Assembly (NCBI RefSeq): GCF_017939705.1
Contig: NZ_JAGKSQ010000005.1
Location: 248,001-312,000 of the forward strand
Reading direction: 5' to 3'
Source of the DNA: Halalkalibacter suaedae
GTDB lineage: Bacteria > Bacillota > Bacilli > Bacillales > Bacillaceae_D
DNA length: 64,000 nucleotides
Shown: positions 49,968 through 58,816 of the stretch, one piece after another
Layout: every line of letters begins with the position of its first letter
How positions within the stretch are numbered: the first letter of the stretch is position 1
Translations under genes and position numbers: made by a program
Notes under the pieces: generated by a model
Told to the model about the DNA's origin: nothing
Seen by the model: only the letters and a program-made list of their open reading frames with translations
The model's database searches: none

Positions 49968-50480
49968 ATGAGGAAACATAAATACTGTTCAAAGTGCGGA
50001 CATAAATTAAGCACTTATCACGACCACAAAAATCATCATCACCATAAAACTAACTGTCATTCAGATCACTATGATTATCATCGTGGTTATCACTGTAATC
50101 ATTCTCATCATCACGATTGTGATTGTCACTACCATCATCGACATTTATGTGATGATGATTTCCGTTTACGTTTAGGTGGACTTCATGGCGGATTAAACTT
50201 TAGACTCAGACAACTTATTGGTTGTGATGTTGAGATTGAATTAGAAAACAATGAGATTTTACATGGAAAAGTGTGTTATGTCGGATCAAATTTTGTTGAG
50301 TTGCAGGTAGAAGAACGTAGCACAGCATCAACCGATGATGAAGAACGAGAAAATGCAACCGATGAGGACGCAAAGGATACTCATTCAAATGATGAAAACT
50401 GTCACAACACGATCTTTTCAATAGATAAAATTGAAAACGTTAAGTACCCTTCAAAATGCCGACCTGATCACGATCATTGA
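49968..50480 (+). CDS. His-rich spore-coat-like protein with C-terminal Sm-like barrel
   Basis: The first ~65 residues are extraordinarily His/Cys/Asp-rich (YCSKCGHKLSTYHDHKNHHH, HSHHHDCDCHYHHRHLCDDD), with a zinc-finger-like CSKCGH. Then RLGGLHGGLNFRLRQLIGCD, VEIELENNEILHGKVCYVG, SNFVELQVEE and a final FSIDKIENVKY trace a small beta-barrel as in GerQ/CotZ-neighbouring coat proteins and MnxE/F. It probably binds metal on the spore surface. AAGGAGG precedes the ATG and a SigK-type promoter is upstream. It stands 1.6 kb from the mnx operon, convergent with it. Confidence 0.75.
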   Translation: MRKHKYCSKCGHKLSTYHDHKNHHHHKTNCHSDHYDYHRGYHCNHSHHHDCDCHYHHRHLCDDDFRLRLGGLHGGLNFRLRQLIGCDVEIELENNEILHGKVCYVGSNFVELQVEERSTASTDDEERENATDEDAKDTHSNDENCHNTIFSIDKIENVKYPSKCRPDHDH

Positions 50481-50638: not shown

Positions 50639-50692
50639 ACTAATTGTCATATCGAATGTTATTAAGTATGTAGCATGAAGGGAGTTTATTTA

Positions 50693-51241
50693 ATGAAACA
50701 TCTTGCTGATAGTCAGAAGCATCGCAGTAAGTTAAGAATGCTACTAAGATCATATTTAATCCTTACTCTTTTAAACGGCCCTCTCTTCAAAAAATGTAAT
50801 AAGGAGGAGCCAGAAGGAGATTTAAATAGCGAGATACTTGAAGGGCTAGTTAGACAACTAAATCGAACGATGCTTCCTATAGACAACCAACCTTTCGAAC
50901 CTGCCTCTTTGTTACCATCAAACTCAGACCAACAAAACAATTACTCTGTCAGCCATAAAAGCCATAAAGAAGTAAAAGAAGCTGAACCAAAAATAGAAAA
51001 ACGAATTAAGAATACCAATAAGGATATACTCGATGACCAGACAGAGGAGCCTCCTTCTAAGCAATGTGTTGAAGATCAATATAAGAACCGTGAAATAAAA
51101 GAAAGTGTAAACGAATCTCTACACCAAGTAGATGACAGTTCTGTCCATCATCAGATTGAGTACGACACCCAGAAAGACACTAGTACAATTAAACTCGTTC
51201 CTATTGACAAGATAAAAGCGATCACATTTAAAAGAAACTAA
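50693..51241 (+). CDS. Coat-associated hypothetical protein beside the mnx operon
   Basis: The 182-residue protein MKHLADSQKHRSKLRMLLRS has a basic N-terminus and a short hydrophobic stretch (YLILTLLNGPLFKKC). A long charged, probably disordered centre follows (EVKEAEPKIEKRIKNTNKDI), and the end DTSTIKLVPIDKIKAITFKR resembles the last strand of the Sm-like domain in the His-rich neighbour (FSIDKIENVKY). No family name can be given. AAGGGAG lies before the ATG. A bidirectional terminator separates it from the facing gene at 51320. Confidence 0.6.
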   Translation: MKHLADSQKHRSKLRMLLRSYLILTLLNGPLFKKCNKEEPEGDLNSEILEGLVRQLNRTMLPIDNQPFEPASLLPSNSDQQNNYSVSHKSHKEVKEAEPKIEKRIKNTNKDILDDQTEEPPSKQCVEDQYKNREIKESVNESLHQVDDSSVHHQIEYDTQKDTSTIKLVPIDKIKAITFKRN

Positions 51242-51285
51242 TAGTTCGCATCTGTAAGATTTGAAATCTAAGATTATCTTTAAAC

Positions 51286-51321
51286 AAAAAAACAGCCTTT
51301 CGTTTGGAAAGCTGTTTTTTT
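51286..51321. terminator. Bidirectional terminator between convergent coat/mnx genes
   Basis: AAAACAGC...GCTGTTTTTTT with an inner CTTTC/GGAAAG pairing and A/T-runs on both sides. It would end both the gene at 50693 and the mnx-side transcript ending at 51320. Confidence 0.8.
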
Positions 51322-52036
51322 ATCGTTTTTCTAATAAAACGATACTTTTAAGTGGAATGATTTTCATTTCTTCTTTGACTTTAACCACAATTGATTCCTT
51401 ATTAACATCTTTTAATAGGCCTTCAAAGAACTCATCGTCCAGATAAACCTTCACTCTTTTAGCCTCAAGAAGTAACAAATAGACGTGTAGTCCCATTCGA
51501 AAAAAAATTTGTAATAATTCTGGAGACGCTGAAACAACTTCACCGAAGTGGTATGTTAAATCACGTCTAAAACAGGGATCAATCGTGCGTAATTCAAGTA
51601 CGTGCTTTGGCTTCGCATAACGACCAACTATATTAATTTCACCTATGAACTGAAAAGGGACAATTCTATCTACCTTACTATTATGAAGAAGCACAAAGTC
51701 AAATCCTACAAGAAATACTCTTCCTTCTACCTTTTTTGGTGTTTCAAGATTAAGCATGATTTCAACTTCTAGTCCGATGACACCATCAAAAATCTGTTGA
51801 AACATTTGATTAGAAGGTATATCGTCTCCAAGACCAAGCATTAGCAATAAAGCATTGGCCTCATCAATTTTCTCCTCTATCTCCTCAAGCTCTTCTTCTG
51901 TTACACAACTTGTAGGTGAAGGAACCATTGGTGTAGGGTAGCGCTCAGGACAACAGCAATCAGGGATAAAGAATTCTAATGGATCTTTCTCTTCTACCTG
52001 TAATTTCTGAGTAGCTTTATGTTTATTGATTTCCAT
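51320..52036 (-). CDS. Tandem Sm-like-domain spore-coat-type protein directly downstream of mnxG
   Basis: The 238-residue protein has a Cys/Pro-rich N-terminal segment (FFIPDCCCPERYPTPMVPSP) and an acidic helix (EEELEEIEEKIDEANALLLM). Two barrel-like repeats follow: IGLEVEIMLN...VEGRVFLVGFDFVLLHN...VPFQFIGEINIVG, and AKRVKVYLDDEFFEGLLKDV...IIPLKSIVLLEK. It sits 69 bases after mnxG on the same strand with AAAGGTGGTGAGG before the ATG and a terminator behind it, so it may be the eighth gene of the mnx transcript. No name in the known mnx set. Confidence 0.65.
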   Translation of the reverse strand: MEINKHKATQKLQVEEKDPLEFFIPDCCCPERYPTPMVPSPTSCVTEEELEEIEEKIDEANALLLMLGLGDDIPSNQMFQQIFDGVIGLEVEIMLNLETPKKVEGRVFLVGFDFVLLHNSKVDRIVPFQFIGEINIVGRYAKPKHVLELRTIDPCFRRDLTYHFGEVVSASPELLQIFFRMGLHVYLLLLEAKRVKVYLDDEFFEGLLKDVNKESIVVKVKEEMKIIPLKSIVLLEKR

Positions 52037-52105
52037 ATCCTCACCACCTTTCGATCATTTTATGATGAGGATATTGGTTTCGATTGGGGTACAACCTATA
52101 ACTCT

Positions 52106-55100
52106 CTACTTTTTTAACGGCGGTAGATGCTTTTGAATATCTTTGTGCACCCTCATAATTCCCCACATTCCTTGTTCAATGTCCCACATGATGTTCCCAG
52201 AGCGATACATAAAATCACCAGTTTCGCGTTTGATCCCTCCTGCACCACCTAAAAGCTCCAAATCTCGCTTCGAACCAGCAACATTAAATCCGACAAATGA
52301 ATCAATTCGTGAATCAATATCCCTGACGTCAAATTTCCAATTATGCCCATGCAGATGGAATGTATGTGTTCGTCTTCTTTCTGCTGGAGTTACTAACCGA
52401 ATCGTAACCGGATCTCCAGCATAACTCTCAAAGATCAGTGTTGCAGGATCGCCGAATTCTTTTGAGCTAAACAATTCGTGCAGCACAGGGTGTTCCCTGT
52501 ATCGATTGATTAAGCGTTCAGATCGATAATTAAAGCCCCTGGATCCTTGATCATACGTGTCTACTTCTTCAACTCCTTCTTCATCTGAAGCTAATAACAC
52601 TCCATCAATTGGGTCAACAATAAATTGTTTATTTTCGTCTAAAAGTCTAACACCATCATGCATTATTAAAACAAACTCTCTAATATCAGGTAGATAAGGA
52701 TTTCTAATGATGACATTGGCCCCAGTACGAACAGGCTTCAATGTGTACGGATCAAGATATTCACTGAATCTATTCTCAGTTACAAAAGCACCAAAGGCCC
52801 CTTGTGATTTATGATTTCGAATGTCAGCCATATCCCACATCCCACAAGCTCCTACATTTGCATTAACAAACCAACGATAGGTTTTTGATTCTCCAGGCCC
52901 CACCGTCTGATCGCCGTTAAAACCTACTGTTTCTCCTGCTGATGTTTTCACATCGTAATCAACAAGTTGAGGATGCAGAGAGATTCGTAATGATGGTGGA
53001 TAAAAAGCCTGCTCCTTCACAGCGGGATATGGGTATATGCCATCTTGAAAAGGAAAGAGCTCCAACTTCAGGAAGCTAGTTAAAGTCACCTCAACAGTGT
53101 CACCTACATTCGCACGAATAATTAACGGTTCAGGATCTCTTTTCCCTTTCACAATATCATCCATATCCTCCATCAAGGAAAACATGATCCCATGTGGATC
53201 GTGATCTCCATAGCTGTTATAGGTAATAGGAACTTGGAACGCAACAATATCAAACGTTTTCAATTGTAAATGATCCCTATCACTTATACTTTCTAGTTTC
53301 GCCTCAGGAACTTTCTCACATGGTTCCGGAAGGATTTTCGTTCGCTTCTGCGGCTTAAATCGATCTTCTAACGGTATTAAATCAGGTACTCTCTGATCAT
53401 AAGCCCGAATCAGTCCCCATAAACCGTTCCAAAGATCTTCTTCTGTTTCAAAAGCCCATAAATAGTCACCAGATCTTGGTATATATGTTTCAAATGTAAA
53501 TGATTCAGAGATTCCGATATGCTGTTGGTTGGCTAGTTCTGAAGAAAGGTCGCCACGTTCCTTCAGCCATCTTAGACCGTGAAGATTGAAACTATGCGAT
53601 TCTTCCTGTGCCCCTTGAAGCAAGCGGATCCGAATAGGGTCCCCCTCATAAGCTCGAAGGATCGGCGTAATTGGATCTCCTTTCACATAAGAACTAAACG
53701 AATAAGCAGGATCGCATTCTTTTCCAAGTCGAAATTGCAATGGTTCATTTTTATAGTTGACCCCAAACAAACCTGGATCGTCCTGTGAACCTGGAAACTC
53801 TGGTGGATTTAGTGGCTTTTTGTTTCGATCAAAAAGCAATGCAAAATCATGGACAAATAATACCAGGTCACGATAATCGGGAATGAGAGGATTTTTTGTA
53901 GTAATTTGTGTTCCATGAAAGACCTCTTCCCCTGTTTTTGAGTCTAAAAATTTTGTGAATCTTGGTTGGATAACCCCTGAGCCAAAAACACCATGTTGCT
54001 GATCCGTCGCTGCAAATAAATGATCATGGAAAAACCATGCTTTTAACTCAACATCTGCAAAATATTCGTATTTAATCGTCTCTCCTGGTAACACGGAAGA
54101 ATCATAATTCCAACCGACGTTCGCTCCATCATTTACTAGAGTATCGAACTTCACAAAATGAATATGCATAGAGGCTTCATACGTTCTTGTAACTAGTTGG
54201 AACGCATCACCATCCAATATATGTGGCATTCGGTTGGTGAAGTTAATGCGAATACTTGTATTAGCTGTTGAATGAATAACCAAGGGTTCCGGTTCCTTTT
54301 TTCCTGCTAGGATATCGTCAACGTCTTCATCCAGTACATAAAACCTTGCCTTTGGATCATGCCAACCTTGCTTGTTATAAACGATTGGGAATTCGATTAG
54401 AGAAATATTAAATTCTATCATTGGACTATTTTGCGGTGTTGGATCTGAAAAGACAGCACCAGGACGGGGATTAGCTATTGCTGCATTGCGTTCGAGCTCT
54501 GTCAATCCTCTTCCATCCACAATTCCTAAAGGTGGCCTTGGCGCCTTAAAGCCAACCTTTCCTGGGATAAAGTTTGGAAACCCAGGTTTTTCTTTGGTTG
54601 GTTTAGGTGGAGCTGGCCGATCAGGCAGTGGTTGAAGTCGTTGAATAGGAACACCATTTGGATAACATTGACTACCATCCTGTAGCGTATTAAAAATCCG
54701 ATTCATCCCCCACATCCCTACCATAAAATGCGGATAAAGATGACAATGAATAATGGTATCTCCAAATGAACCTTGCAAACTTCCTAAGCCATATAGCGGT
54801 TCAATTGTATAATGAGTTTGTGGACTCACTGATTGCGAATCAATGATATTCGACTCTATATTCTGATGATCCGAAAACCATTGATGAACATGATAATGAA
54901 AAACATGCGTCTCTTTCATACCGGCGTGAACAAGTCGAATCCGTGCTGGGTCTCCTACATACCCTTTTAAAATCGGTGTTGCAGGATCGCCATATACCCA
55001 TGAGTCATGATGAACCTCCTCACCATCACAATCTGGACACACGACACCCTCGCTAATTAACTGCTGCCGCCTGTGCATTGGTTCATAACGATAATTAACT

Positions 55101-55747
55101 CCGTGGAAGGATTCTGTTTCTTGGTTGGTCATTGGATCAATCGGGTTATTGCCTGTAAGATCATCTATTTCCATTTCATCATGAAAGATCCAAGCGTATT
55201 CACGATGAGAAGGCAGCAAAGGATGATGAATATCAGCATCAATCCCACAGTTCATTGGTTTTCCTGTTACAGGATCGGTCCACCAAGAAAACCGTCTTTC
55301 AACAAAGAGAGCACCGAATAAACCATTTGAGTTCGATCCGTTTTCACTGCTTGAAGGATTCCCCAAGTCTGAGAAAAAACAGATCCCTTCTTTTACCGCA
55401 CGAATTTTATATAAAAGGCTCTTTCCTGGTGCAACGGTCGAATCCTCGTTGAAGCCTACATATGCACCATCGGATTGACAGACATTGTATTCAGCATCTT
55501 GAAAATGCATTCCCGCGTGAAAAGGAACTTTATTTTCAAAAAGGATTTCCACTTCATCACCTTCATTTGCCCGAATAACAAGGGGACGGACTAGCTCAAC
55601 AGGTGTAAAGGGATTCTTTCTCACAAGCTCTCTAACCTTATCTTCATTCTCCTTCAGTACGTACATATATCCATTTGGATTATGATCTCCAAATGTGTTG
55701 ACGACGATTCGAATTGGAATCGCGACAACATGATAGTATCGTCTCAT
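52106..55747 (-). CDS. mnxG: MnxG: giant multicopper manganese oxidase
   Basis: The ~1213-residue protein has several cupredoxin domains. The type 1/3 copper motif H334-C335-H336-x3-H340-x4-M345 (HCHLYPHFMVGM) lies in the first third, paired with H284/H286/H288 (HYHVH). Further His pairs are H77/H81, H528/H530, H574/H576 and H1131/H1133/H1135 (HLHGH). Length, copper-site placement and the mnxE/F genes upstream identify Bacillus MnxG, which oxidises Mn(II) to Mn(IV) oxide on the spore surface. The ATG at 55747 is chosen for AAAAGGGGG; a longer frame overlaps mnxF. No signal peptide is seen. Confidence 0.96.
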   Translation of the reverse strand: MRRYYHVVAIPIRIVVNTFGDHNPNGYMYVLKENEDKVRELVRKNPFTPVELVRPLVIRANEGDEVEILFENKVPFHAGMHFQDAEYNVCQSDGAYVGFNEDSTVAPGKSLLYKIRAVKEGICFFSDLGNPSSSENGSNSNGLFGALFVERRFSWWTDPVTGKPMNCGIDADIHHPLLPSHREYAWIFHDEMEIDDLTGNNPIDPMTNQETESFHGVNYRYEPMHRRQQLISEGVVCPDCDGEEVHHDSWVYGDPATPILKGYVGDPARIRLVHAGMKETHVFHYHVHQWFSDHQNIESNIIDSQSVSPQTHYTIEPLYGLGSLQGSFGDTIIHCHLYPHFMVGMWGMNRIFNTLQDGSQCYPNGVPIQRLQPLPDRPAPPKPTKEKPGFPNFIPGKVGFKAPRPPLGIVDGRGLTELERNAAIANPRPGAVFSDPTPQNSPMIEFNISLIEFPIVYNKQGWHDPKARFYVLDEDVDDILAGKKEPEPLVIHSTANTSIRINFTNRMPHILDGDAFQLVTRTYEASMHIHFVKFDTLVNDGANVGWNYDSSVLPGETIKYEYFADVELKAWFFHDHLFAATDQQHGVFGSGVIQPRFTKFLDSKTGEEVFHGTQITTKNPLIPDYRDLVLFVHDFALLFDRNKKPLNPPEFPGSQDDPGLFGVNYKNEPLQFRLGKECDPAYSFSSYVKGDPITPILRAYEGDPIRIRLLQGAQEESHSFNLHGLRWLKERGDLSSELANQQHIGISESFTFETYIPRSGDYLWAFETEEDLWNGLWGLIRAYDQRVPDLIPLEDRFKPQKRTKILPEPCEKVPEAKLESISDRDHLQLKTFDIVAFQVPITYNSYGDHDPHGIMFSLMEDMDDIVKGKRDPEPLIIRANVGDTVEVTLTSFLKLELFPFQDGIYPYPAVKEQAFYPPSLRISLHPQLVDYDVKTSAGETVGFNGDQTVGPGESKTYRWFVNANVGACGMWDMADIRNHKSQGAFGAFVTENRFSEYLDPYTLKPVRTGANVIIRNPYLPDIREFVLIMHDGVRLLDENKQFIVDPIDGVLLASDEEGVEEVDTYDQGSRGFNYRSERLINRYREHPVLHELFSSKEFGDPATLIFESYAGDPVTIRLVTPAERRRTHTFHLHGHNWKFDVRDIDSRIDSFVGFNVAGSKRDLELLGGAGGIKRETGDFMYRSGNIMWDIEQGMWGIMRVHKDIQKHLPPLKK

Positions 55748-55761
55748 GGAGTGTCCCCCTT

Positions 55762-56070
55762 TTAGCATTCTTTTAGATTGGGAATCTTAGGGCCATTTTC
55801 TTTCTCAATATAAAACACTTCAACATTGTGAATATGAACTGTCCACTCACTATCCTCTAATGCAGCTACTGAGGTTGTCTCAACATCTAATACTGCCATA
55901 TCCTCAACGACATCTTTTATTTTGCCGACGAACATAAACGGAAAAGAAGGTGTTAGGATAAAGACTCTCTTACCAATTCCTCTTCTAAAAGCAGCAATCA
56001 TTGCTTCATCATGAATCGCATTGACAGAAAAATCATCCATATTTACGAGTTGTTTATCAATAGGGTTCAA
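55762..56070 (-). CDS. mnxF: MnxF: small subunit of the Mn oxidase complex
   Basis: The 102-residue protein has an Sm-like pattern, FRRGIGKRVFILTPSFPFMF, VGKIKDVVEDMAVLDVE, then WTVHIHNVEVFYIE. In Bacillus sp. PL-12 MnxE and MnxF form a ring-like hexamer that binds copper and holds MnxG. The start is a TTG 6 bases after AGGAGGGG; an ATG is available ten codons later. Gaps to mnxE (12 bases) and mnxG (14 bases) show one operon. The HIH motif could bind copper. Confidence 0.88.
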   Translation of the reverse strand: MNPIDKQLVNMDDFSVNAIHDEAMIAAFRRGIGKRVFILTPSFPFMFVGKIKDVVEDMAVLDVETTSVAALEDSEWTVHIHNVEVFYIEKENGPKIPNLKEC

Positions 56071-56082
56071 ATAAATCCCCTC

Positions 56083-56382
56083 CTAAGTTAATGGAAATAC
56101 TTGATCACATGGAATGTCTGAAGAAAACGAAGATATTTTTTCGATTGGAATACTTAATGGTAGCGGAAACTCATAGAAAGGTGCATTGACCATTTTTATC
56201 GTAACAGGTGATAATGTCACATGACCTCTAGTCACTTCGGTTACTGTTCCACAGAAAATGGGCCGAAACACCTGACCTAATAAATCAAGCTGTGATGATT
56301 CTGTAACGATTAACACTTCTTCATCGATTAGCTTTTCAAGGTTGCGATATAAACGATCTTCAATTTGTTTATTTTTTTCCAT
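56083..56382 (-). CDS. mnxE: MnxE: small subunit of the Mn oxidase complex
   Basis: The 99-residue protein MEKNKQIEDRLYRNLEKLID is predicted mostly beta after an N-terminal helix: EEVLIVTESSQLDLLG, FCGTVTEVTRGHVTLSPVTI, PLSIPIEKISSFSS. That is the same turn order as MnxF and the coat-like neighbours. It has one Cys and few His. AGGGAGGT is 7 bases before the ATG. Position between mnxD and mnxF and size identify it as MnxE. Confidence 0.85.
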   Translation of the reverse strand: MEKNKQIEDRLYRNLEKLIDEEVLIVTESSQLDLLGQVFRPIFCGTVTEVTRGHVTLSPVTIKMVNAPFYEFPLPLSIPIEKISSFSSDIPCDQVFPLT

Positions 56383-56417
56383 TTGACGTACCTCCCTAAA
56401 ATAGTGAGTCAGGCATC

Positions 56418-57125
56418 TTACTTGTACATTCTTCTAAACATATCTGTAAACTTTCTAGCCAATTGAAACATTCTTATGGTAGAAACATAATGAATCTCAG
56501 TAAATTTTATATAGTGATGATCAGAGAAACTTCTAATATGAAGCAGATCTTTCTTGGCCTCTAAGATTTTCCCTATATGGTACGTATCGTTAACTCTGAC
56601 CTTTACCCATGTCCCGCTCCATGAGTGAAGATTTGTTCGGAGTGTCTCTTCAAAAAATTGCTGAATTAAGGTATCTTTTCTTGCTACGGTTTTTCCAAAT
56701 TGAGTAACCAATTTATTTTTTAGATCGTTATCATACAGAAAATGCTGATGTGAATTGGAGTAGGTCGGTGTACCATAGGGGATATTGGCTGAATCAATTG
56801 CTGTATAAGGAATCCAGATTCTATTTTGTAGATTGGTGAGCATGACAAAATCTCTTCCAATAGCAGTAACCTTCGCTTCAATTGGGACATCCTCTTCATT
56901 CTTCAGTATTACTACTACCTGCTGATTTCTTTTCATTTTAAAAAACATCTTTAATACAAGTGGCTTTCTTCTACTCTCATCATGTTTGGAAATATTAAAA
57001 AGGCTAGCTTGATTCATGTACTCTGTTAAAATTCTGGTCTCTTCGCTTGAAACAGCACTTGTTGGAGAGGAAAATGTTTTGGGAAGAGTTTTTTTTATAA
57101 TCGTTTGTTCATCTTTATGGGTCAT
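56418..57125 (-). CDS. mnxD: MnxD-like protein with two Sm-like modules
   Basis: The 235-residue protein is named by its place in the operon. Its middle has FKMKRNQQVVVILKNEEDVP, IEAKVTAIGRDFVMLTNLQN, RIWIPYTAIDSANIP. The C-terminal half has SGTWVKVRVNDTYHIGKILE, AKKDLLHIRSFSDHHYIKFT, EIHYVSTI. Both look like the small barrels of MnxE/F. The N-terminal 60 residues are polar. No enzyme motif is seen. AGGGGTGAG precedes the ATG; 35 bases to mnxE. Confidence 0.8.
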   Translation of the reverse strand: MTHKDEQTIIKKTLPKTFSSPTSAVSSEETRILTEYMNQASLFNISKHDESRRKPLVLKMFFKMKRNQQVVVILKNEEDVPIEAKVTAIGRDFVMLTNLQNRIWIPYTAIDSANIPYGTPTYSNSHQHFLYDNDLKNKLVTQFGKTVARKDTLIQQFFEETLRTNLHSWSGTWVKVRVNDTYHIGKILEAKKDLLHIRSFSDHHYIKFTEIHYVSTIRMFQLARKFTDMFRRMYK

Positions 57126-57230
57126 GATCTCACCCCTACCCTACCTAATTGAAAGACTGTTAATAACCTAACTTGACTTCCTCACTCGTAGTTCTTATAT
57201 CATATGGACTATAAGCTAGTAAGTCTTAAA

Positions 57231-57827
57231 CTAATTCTCATTTATAAGTAACTGAATATTACTCACAAGCTCTTCTAGGTTAACGGCTTTACTATTCGTT
57301 GCCATATCATGATGCGACCGAATCGTATTACTAGCATCAACCAAGTACATTGTTGTGCTATGAGTGATAAAACCATCGGAAGTTTTTTCGTTGAACATAC
57401 TAAATTGCTCGGTAATCTGTTTCGTTTGCTCTATAGAACCTCGTAAGAAAAACCAATTACTTGCGGCAACTCTAAAGTTTTCCTTATATTCAGTTATCTT
57501 TTCTACTGTGTCTACTTCAGGATCAAGTGTGATTAAAATGATCTGGTACTCAGAATCATCGAGCCCATCTTTTTTCAGCTTCTCTTGCAGGTTCTTTAAG
57601 TCCAAAATCGTTAGCGGGCACACATCGGGACATTTCGTATAAAAGAAAGTCACAAGCTTAATTTTGTCATTAGCCAGGTCGTAGTCACTTCCATCAAGTG
57701 CAGTAAAAATTGGTGCTTCAACTACTCTGAGCTTCGGTAATTCTACTGTCCGAGGCCAAAAGAAGAAGATAGCAAAAAATCCAGCAAGCATGCAGAAAGC
57801 AACAATGAACTTGAACCTAAAGTTCAT
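57231..57827 (-). CDS. mnxC: MnxC: SCO1/SenC-like copper chaperone
   Basis: The ~198-residue protein has one N-terminal membrane helix (FKFIVAFCMLAGFFAIFFFW). The SCO thioredoxin-like domain has the copper/redox pair C66-x3-C70 (KCPDVCPLT) and the conserved His in ITHSTTMYLVD; LVTFFYTKCPD and ITLDPEVDTVEK are standard SCO1 motifs. SCO proteins load copper or reduce target cysteines; here the target is probably MnxG. The ATG at 57827 follows AAAGGAG. Confidence 0.92.
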   Translation of the reverse strand: MNFRFKFIVAFCMLAGFFAIFFFWPRTVELPKLRVVEAPIFTALDGSDYDLANDKIKLVTFFYTKCPDVCPLTILDLKNLQEKLKKDGLDDSEYQIILITLDPEVDTVEKITEYKENFRVAASNWFFLRGSIEQTKQITEQFSMFNEKTSDGFITHSTTMYLVDASNTIRSHHDMATNSKAVNLEELVSNIQLLINEN

Positions 57828-57899
57828 AAACAAGCTCCTTTTTCATTATTCATTTAAATAGATTGCTTTCCGAGAAGAAGTGAATCTTCGTTGAACCTC

Positions 57900-58361
57900 C
57901 TAAACTTTTAGTGAGTATAAAATTAGACTAAGAGACATCGATAAAAGAAGAGTCGTAAACCCACTTAATTGGTATAGATTGAGGAGGATATCCGGCCCAG
58001 ACTCGAGCGGTATTTTGCAAAGGGCTGGATCCTTGAGAACTTCCCCCATCATTACACCCATAGAACTACCAACAGCCCCACTATATAGACCTGTAAGAAT
58101 AGAGTGGAATTTCACAAGTGAACCGAACAAGCATCCAATCATAATTCCGATAAACAAATTCAAGAAAAACAATGAGGTTAATTGTAAAGGAAGGGCAACT
58201 GTCACATGAAGACAAATGACCAATGTTGAAATCATCGTCGTAGTCATTGTTAGTGTCATTGCAAAACGATCATCATATAGCACTCTTTTCTTTCTTAAAA
58301 TGCGATAACACATAATAACACTTATAAGATTCCAAAGGCCCAAAATATAGATTAAAAGCAT
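57900..58361 (-). CDS. mnxB: MnxB-like polytopic membrane protein
   Basis: The 153-residue protein has four to five hydrophobic helices. The segment GIMIGCLFGSLVKFHSILTG closely parallels GIVIGGLFGALFDYQTFLTG in the next upstream gene, so the two are paralogues from an old duplication. Glycine-rich helices with a few Met/Cys/His suggest a small channel or ion carrier; that is inference. Named by operon position. AAAGGGG precedes the ATG; 11 bases separate it from mnxA. Confidence 0.78.
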   Translation of the reverse strand: MLLIYILGLWNLISVIMCYRILRKKRVLYDDRFAMTLTMTTTMISTLVICLHVTVALPLQLTSLFFLNLFIGIMIGCLFGSLVKFHSILTGLYSGAVGSSMGVMMGEVLKDPALCKIPLESGPDILLNLYQLSGFTTLLLSMSLSLILYSLKV

Positions 58362-58372
58362 ACTCCACCCCT

Positions 58373-58795
58373 TTAGGACCTGATGATGGATACAATAATA
58401 AGTGAAATCGCAGCACCTATTAATCCCTCTAGTGCTACAATAAAAAGAAATTGGTCAGTAAGAATGGAGCCTATCATAGGAGACATCAGACCTAGCATGA
58501 GCCCATTACTAAATCCTGTTAAAAATGTTTGATAATCAAACAAAGCCCCGAATAGTCCCCCTATCACTATCCCAATCAGCGTAGATATGATGGTGATCAC
58601 TGTAAAATGAAAAGGATATTGAAAAATTAATAATACTCCACTAATTAAGGCCATCATCCCTCCCGCAACAATCGCTATATTCATTCCTAACTGAAACCCT
58701 ATAAACTTTCGACAACGAAAAATATAAAAATACAAGGCTATGATTACAACAAAATTTATATATAAAAGATAAATCATGTTAATATCGCCCACCAT
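58373..58795 (-). CDS. mnxA: MnxA-like polytopic membrane protein
   Basis: The ~140-residue protein has four or five membrane helices (IYLLYINFVVIIALYFYIF, MNIAIVAGGMMALISGVLLI, TVITIISTLIGIVIGGLFG) and is paralogous to the next gene. First gene of the mnx operon by position. The start is uncertain: an ATG at 58795, GTG at 58792 and ATG at 58777 all have GGTG-type purines nearby, and the shortest fits best with the SigK-like element at 58808. Confidence 0.75.
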   Translation of the reverse strand: MVGDINMIYLLYINFVVIIALYFYIFRCRKFIGFQLGMNIAIVAGGMMALISGVLLIFQYPFHFTVITIISTLIGIVIGGLFGALFDYQTFLTGFSNGLMLGLMSPMIGSILTDQFLFIVALEGLIGAAISLIIVSIIRS

Positions 58796-58807
58796 ATCAC
58801 CTCAAAT

Positions 58808-58816
58808 TAAAATATG
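58808..58816 (-). promoter_or_regulatory. Candidate SigK -10 element of the mnx operon
   Basis: Minus strand CATATTTTA fits CATAnnnTA exactly. The nearest upstream AC sits about 19-20 bases away rather than 16-17, and a palindrome ATACAT/ATGTAT lies in between. A SigK-type site upstream of mnx is reported for Bacillus sp. SG-1. The start point would fall very near the first ribosome site. Confidence 0.4.

Follow-up and report, generated by a model that had tools for sequence, protein, structure and literature searches.

Some spore-forming bacteria convert dissolved manganese to a brown mineral by means of the manganese oxidase operon mnx, which we take to consist of seven genes (mnxA to mnxG) and to end at mnxG. 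Is the operon complete with those seven? The question is raised by a window of 64,000 nucleotides from Halalkalibacter suaedae (positions 248,001 to 312,000 of contig NZ_JAGKSQ010000005.1), in whose list of open reading frames (ORFs) eight consecutive ones lie on the minus strand, from 58795 down to 51320. A preliminary description of this DNA had recognized a complete mnxABCDEFG operon followed by one further gene, and both are present: the seven are same-strand ORFs, of which mnxC encodes a SCO1/SenC protein and mnxE, mnxF and mnxG match chains of PDB entry 9bxa, while the eighth, here called mnxH (51320-52036, minus strand), lies beyond mnxG across a gap of 69 nt (52037-52105) and encodes 238 aa, comprising a Cys-rich N-terminal tail, helices, and two predicted Sm-like barrels.

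That mnxH belongs to the mnx locus we regard as nearly certain, and its conservation, position and co-occurrence with mnxG make it part of the mnx system. The operon itself is already known; mnxH and a linked ninth gene, mnxI, are apparently two conserved components of it that have so far gone unrecognized. Literature searches named no eighth or ninth mnx gene (the founding papers were beyond their reach, and a prior mention is possible), and a search on "MnxH" returned unrelated topics only (batteries, networks). The closest known system is the operon of Bacillus sp. SG-1, the classic strain, and PL-12. The mnxABCDEFG genes of SG-1 (locus L024) are the same seven, in the same order and on the same strand as in the window, and there mnxH starts 15 nt past the mnxG stop with a ribosome site in front. 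In both SG-1 and the window an eighth gene follows mnxG and the linked ninth lies nearby, whereas the system as we take it to be stops at mnxG.

Co-occurrence and arrangement of mnxH

Linkage to mnxG, one of the points on which the preliminary description let the gene's membership turn, is upheld by profile searches of 397 genomes of the order (52 with MnxG and 345 without): MnxH is present in 44 of the 52 and was found in none of the 345, at a depth of the best few first-look candidates scored per genome (6 in the search for H and 2 in that for MnxG; 7 and 8 in others), which also makes copy numbers lower bounds. No genome with H and without mnxG was found (Fisher p 1e-50, a value that takes no account of kinship). 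The split between H and D in these genomes follows profile score together with position, and the count for H includes G062 and G105, in both of which H is split into two matches, and G160 (fragment mnxG). In all 44 genomes the contig of mnxG also has a copy of H, no more than 3,010 bp away and in 28 cases within 150 bp; distances were measured for one H per genome, that is for 44 of the 47 H-type places, and the other three lie within ~0.9 kb of mnxG (G351, G073) or ~13 kb off (G244).

A scan of named genomes for mnxG gave 66 loci, including multi-copy genomes and some overlapping stretches, of which 56 were counted after five without full-length G and five with short flanks had been dropped. 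Among these 56, mnxF is present in 56, mnxE in 53, mnxH in 51, mnxI in 50, mnxD in 49, the A/B family in 47, and mnxC in 34. In its association with mnxG, H is thus about as constant as mnxD, which is found in 49 of the 52 MnxG genomes (on the same list as the 44 with H) and in two fewer named loci; in Bacillus kwashiorkori H is present with no match to D. In two Domibacillus genomes mnxG is present in several copies, and beside three of these copies mnxF is the only other mnx gene (L020, L021, L022, L028, L052, L060, L061).

H takes one of three positions: immediately behind G; some 400-1400 nt from G, often with I in the interval; or ahead of A/B in divergent orientation, still at the same locus, in a clade of ten rows that stands on the H side of the tree described below. 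The separated and divergent arrangements rule out the proposition that mnxH is always in the operon.

Beyond the order, a phylum sample of 373 genomes has MnxG in 11 and strong H matches in four, all of them MnxG genomes. Eight loci were fetched: three carry an I-like gene besides E, F, G and H (in G549 and G690 the stretch has no A-D; G759, a separate E/F locus with H, also has D and A/B), four mnxG loci have no E/F and no H or I detected (one being cut by the contig end), and the last, on a short contig, encodes a fused E/F-like protein and lacks H. In Tissierella, whose genome gives no D match, all of E, F, G, H and I are present, so that outside the order four separate-E/F loci carry H and I (G549, G690, Tissierella, G759), three of them without A-D nearby. 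H may help to separate E/F-type mnxG loci from distant mnxG homologues without E/F. The Tissierella locus (L050) is from T. creatinophila, which we take to be an anaerobe, and it carries these five genes despite that lifestyle; oxidases of the MnxG kind use oxygen.

The operon in the window and its transcription

At the head of the operon lie two paralogous small membrane proteins, mnxA (58373-58795), whose start may perhaps be an ATG at ~58777 giving 134 aa, and mnxB (57900-58361). They are followed by mnxC (57231-57833), SCO1/SenC-like (Pfam PF02630, E 1e-24), and mnxD (56418-57125), a tandem Sm-like-barrel protein as predicted by a model with a pLDDT confidence score of 81 and, by the tree, a paralogue of mnxH. 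The small oxidase subunits mnxE (56083-56382) and mnxF (55762-56070; start codon TTG, with a good ribosome site in front) match 9bxa chain B, MnxE (118 bits, E 2e-33), and chain E, MnxF (107 bits, E 3e-30). The multicopper oxidase gene (Pfam) mnxG (52106-55747), like all of these on the minus strand, encodes 1213 aa, its mechanical ORF beginning seven codons before that start; it matches 9bxa chain A, MnxG, with 2075 bits over residues 2-1212, has His-X-His motifs at 284, 334, 528, 574 and 1131, and is the single mnxG match in its genome at E 1e-100. Because MnxG, MnxF and MnxE are homologous to the chains of this MnxG(E3F3) complex, the operon is of the Bacillus type. The NCBIfam MnxG model NF041487, which we take to be the Pseudomonas-type MnxG, shares the gene name and the oxidase superfamily with the window protein, which reaches 304 bits where the model's cut-off is 3100 and so belongs to a different family.

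The preliminary description placed a terminator only after the eighth gene and regarded a strong promoter and terminator in the 69-nt gap as a finding that would set mnxH apart; neither was recognizable there. On the minus strand of the gap the scans gave no terminator-like site, no sigma-K-like site, and no sigma-70-like site, the sigma-70 scan being uninformative here (31 sites found against 30.5 expected). A hairpin (fold of 52020-52110, -21.2 kcal/mol, z -2.7) takes in both the ribosome site and the start codon of mnxH, whose translation it may throttle. Downstream of mnxH, the fold of 51280-51330 gives a terminator hairpin on the minus strand (folded limits 51283-51324) of -17.3 kcal/mol (z -4.7), with none of 200 shuffles equally good and a T run next in the sequence. 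The general terminator scan did not list it, probably because A-T pairs lengthen the stem into the T run.

A sigma-K promoter, active in late sporulation, is presumably a known mnx feature upstream of mnxA. Sites were sought with a pattern of our own, AC-N16-18-CATANNNTA, built on the sigma-K consensus. The window has CATATTTTA at 58816 upstream of mnxA, without a well-spaced -35, and a better sigma-K-like site in the gap between C and D, at 57206. Such a site stands ahead of the first A/B gene in 7 of 53 cases, against 0.7 in resampled sequence. Upstream of H it occurs in none of the 33 genes adjacent to G, in 8 of 13 separated ones and in 3 of 10 divergent ones (0.2-0.3 expected from resampling); the eight come from seven Domibacillus and one Oceanobacillus and are hence not independent. 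The adjacent and separated genes make up 46 H rows, which were labelled by position, with L059 and L065 falling on the tree's D side and the window excluded. The contrast between adjacent and separated H fits read-through from G in the former against a private late-sporulation promoter in the latter. In the window, mnxH is most likely transcribed from an upstream mnx promoter, across the 69-nt gap, to its own terminator.

The window's genus includes G013, which matches Halalkalibacter alkaliphilus (L069 = L038, 100% over 3669 bp), and just 3 of its 13 members have mnxG matches. The window MnxG is 77% identical to that of Halobacillus and others, as against 67% to that of G013. These comparisons suggest horizontal transfer or differential loss.

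Relatives and predicted fold of MnxH

A single-sequence query with MnxH finds one relative in its own genome, MnxD (26% identity, E 1e-8); a profile search adds a third D-like paralogue elsewhere (L117:3398-3985, minus strand, contig C27), which has 195 aa, is nearer to D, and lies away from the mnx locus beside apparent sensor-kinase and ABC-transporter genes. Profiles of MnxH (47 sequences) and MnxD (41) match with 99.8% probability across 202 columns, covering most of the length, with a central motif common to both (an LR, FG, FF block). In a tree of 113 D/H proteins, unrooted (midpoint only) and flagged by the tool as one in which long branches meet, a single 100/100 branch separates a D side of 55 rows from an H side of 58, and the window MnxH, at its mnx locus, groups on the H side with Halobacillus H (99/89). 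Side and gene position agree except at two Peribacillus deserti loci, where the gene in the H position groups with D and another gene, which bears no label, groups with H, and at one Neobacillus locus, where D and H are swapped. Judged from these comparisons, MnxH and MnxD are the products of an old duplication. They have the predicted tandem barrels in common and differ at their ends, MnxD having a C-terminal helix and no Cys-rich tail: in the MnxH tail C29 is conserved in 42 of the 47 rows, C44 in 33 and C28 in 28, with a further conserved Cys at 155 (35 rows), whereas no column of the 41 MnxD rows has 10 or more Cys.

The preliminary description had also assigned to the eighth gene two domains of the same barrel type as MnxE and MnxF. 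The two barrels stand, as a prediction: in their AlphaFold models both H (pLDDT 82) and D have two five-strand sets with helices in front. The likeness to E and F does not stand as a statement about sequence, and MnxD is the close relative: the profile probability of H is 99.9% with D, 11.6% with E and 0.6% with F (0.2% in reversed controls), while that between E and F is 86.9%. PDB 9bxa is not among the 50 listed structure matches of H or D.

In structure searches the only match below E 0.001 is the viral protein 2x4j, ranked first for both H and D. The best-fitting Hfq, that of M. jannaschii, superposes on H at 0.9 Å across 52 columns (E 0.008). GerQ (8zra), a protein of the spore coat, ranks fourth for H (E 0.009) and sixth for D (E 0.03). 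On each of these two folds one MnxH barrel superposes at E ~0.01, and MnxH differs from them in having two barrels per chain. MnxH has no significant sequence match to Sm/Hfq families in Pfam, NCBIfam or the PDB, and Pfam and NCBIfam give only sub-threshold RimP-like matches. The distant sequence relatives of the H and D profiles (18-41 bits) are proteins with DUF2642/DUF6897 domains that we take to be CotB-like; they differ from MnxH in architecture and lie off the mnx locus, in G078, which has mnxG, and in G149, which has none. GerQ and these CotB-like relatives hint, weakly, at a link between MnxH and the spore coat.

Possible roles of MnxH and the linked gene mnxI

The Mnx complex serves as a model for manganese biomineralization by bacteria, and the constructs in PMC5622069 end at mnxG: the complex from an mnxDEFG construct is reported as MnxGE3F3, and mnxEFG as the smallest set that gives activity. 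H is thus not needed for in vitro catalysis and would act beyond it, in mounting, metal loading or mineral release. MnxG and its activity are located in the SG-1 exosporium, according to a title cited in PMC5622069.

The best overall explanation, to which we give about an even chance, is that mnxH is a genuine mnx component encoding a spore-surface scaffold. With its two predicted Sm/Hfq-like barrels and flexible Cys-rich tail MnxH would be a structural spore-surface protein which, together with MnxD and the His/Cys-rich MnxI, might build or crosslink a layer of barrels at the exosporium or the outer coat; that layer would dock the MnxG(E3F3) oxidase and handle its copper or manganese, and the Cys residues of the tail might form disulphides or bind copper. 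The docking or scaffold role of MnxH we place slightly below even, and MnxH and MnxI together are most likely spore-surface scaffold or metal-handling proteins for MnxEFG. The broadest version, a spore machine of MnxEFG, MnxH and MnxI in which fast-evolving barrel proteins mount the oxidase in the exosporium and handle metals and mineral, is possible, on the doubtful side. If true, MnxH and MnxI would explain how an enzyme can be mounted on spores without being entombed in its own oxide; and if H is functional, studies of how the enzyme is anchored, how it is loaded with metal and how mineral is exported, those on SG-1 included, have omitted a component.

A number of observations weigh against this explanation. 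H is absent from 5 of the 56 named loci, the H-less ones including three extra Domibacillus mnxFG copies and L052. It is missing from all six MnxG genomes of one genus (f39/g45, gene order D-E-F-G-C) and from Domibacillus tundrae, which has A-G; D, E, F and G are intact in each of these, and the view that H is essential is ruled out by them, while an eighth H-less MnxG genome has only E, F and a shortened G. No H match was found near extra mnxG copies in G088, G134, G188 and G254, a second H copy in G244 is ~13 kb from the nearest listed mnxG, and H is missing from seven distant genomes with MnxG in other parts of the phylum. The sequence of H changes more rapidly than that of D (mean column identity 26% for H, 48% for D), and its profile probabilities with E and F are the low ones given above. 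The Hfq and GerQ matches are at E ~0.01 or more, with a widespread fold and, for 2x4j, no stated function. As for transcription, a terminator-like hairpin with a T run lies in the gap between G and H at 20 of the 46 loci, as counted by a finder of our own without a shuffle control; 12 of these gaps exceed 400 nt and eight are shorter (for example in Paenisporosarcina). Finally, the placement of MnxH in the spore or on the oxidase is itself inferred.

Among the alternatives, MnxH might be a stoichiometric subunit of the native spore oxidase, its barrels joining or replacing members of the E/F ring, which a construct ending at mnxG would have missed; the short spacing behind mnxG in SG-1, the way H tracks separate-E/F loci outside the order, and the mnxDEFG construct without H in PMC5622069 agree with this. 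We nevertheless think it unlikely, as recombinant MnxGE3F3 is active and has been solved without H (PMC5622069; PDB 9bxa), the six genomes of one genus have intact EFG without H, and the H profile scores with E and F are low beside the reversed controls. Comparably unlikely is a role of MnxH as a factor that loads copper into MnxG or matures it alongside the SCO1-like MnxC, with the Cys-rich tail of MnxH ferrying Cu(I) in sporulation. A conserved tail of the C-x4-CC-x14-C type, present only in H, the SCO1-like gene in the locus, and the His/Cys-rich product of mnxI all suit such a factor; but the Cys are not strict (19 of 47 rows lack C28 or have a gap there, C44 is Ser in nine, and the first Cys is replaced in the window), 18 of the 51 H loci have no mnxC nearby, and the recombinant Mnx complex, made without H, binds copper (PMC5622069).

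Hfq accounts for many of the structure matches listed, the best of them the one described above, and this would suit an RNA-binding Sm/Hfq-like regulator of the operon; the tandem, Cys-tailed architecture and the lack of a significant Sm/Hfq sequence match make this a very improbable reading, and 2x4j, GerQ, Tudor and a 30S assembly-complex chain match similarly, so that the fold says little. That mnxH is a chance neighbour or hitch-hiker, an ordinary spore-coat gene beside mnxG, is barely credible: H is not universal with mnxG and is sometimes its own transcription unit, but it was found in none of the 345 MnxG-less genomes at the depth searched, keeps a copy near mnxG in all 44 genomes across three arrangements, and is retained where A-D are missing.

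The ninth gene, mnxI (49968-50480, plus strand), is convergent with mnxH and encodes 170 aa with a His/Cys-rich N-terminus and, by sequence, one barrel-type domain; in a family of 41 aligned rows this domain shows a profile relationship to barrel one of H (96.6% probability, E 6e-10). mnxI occurs in 42 of the 397 order genomes, 40 of the 52 with MnxG and two of the 345 without. One of these two, G229, has fragments of mnxA/B and mnxC alongside and probably represents an mnx locus in decay; in G127, the second of them, 13 kb of sequence shows no mnx remains. Of the loci that look decayed (L128, L120), G229 keeps I with its A/B and C fragments, and G179, with no MnxG match in the profile search, keeps A/B and a D fragment. 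In G549 a single run of genes on one strand comprises E, F, G, H and I. The ORF at 50675-51241 (plus strand), between mnxH and mnxI, was left out as an mnx component, since among the loci searched it has no relative and matches only its own window copy.

In nine ORFs the halves of the I domain are swapped, the strand part preceding the helix part, as against 55 in the usual order, which were chosen by motif and unchecked individually. The nine, likewise identified by motif and all on the plus strand, are L026:5909-6346, L036:5693-6454, L037:5277-6269, L039:5641-6342, L044:5594-6145, L066:5902-6408, L073:871-1329, L074:106-720 and L103:866-1417. Six of them belong to the ten-row clade with divergent H, and the swap looks like a natural circular permutation.

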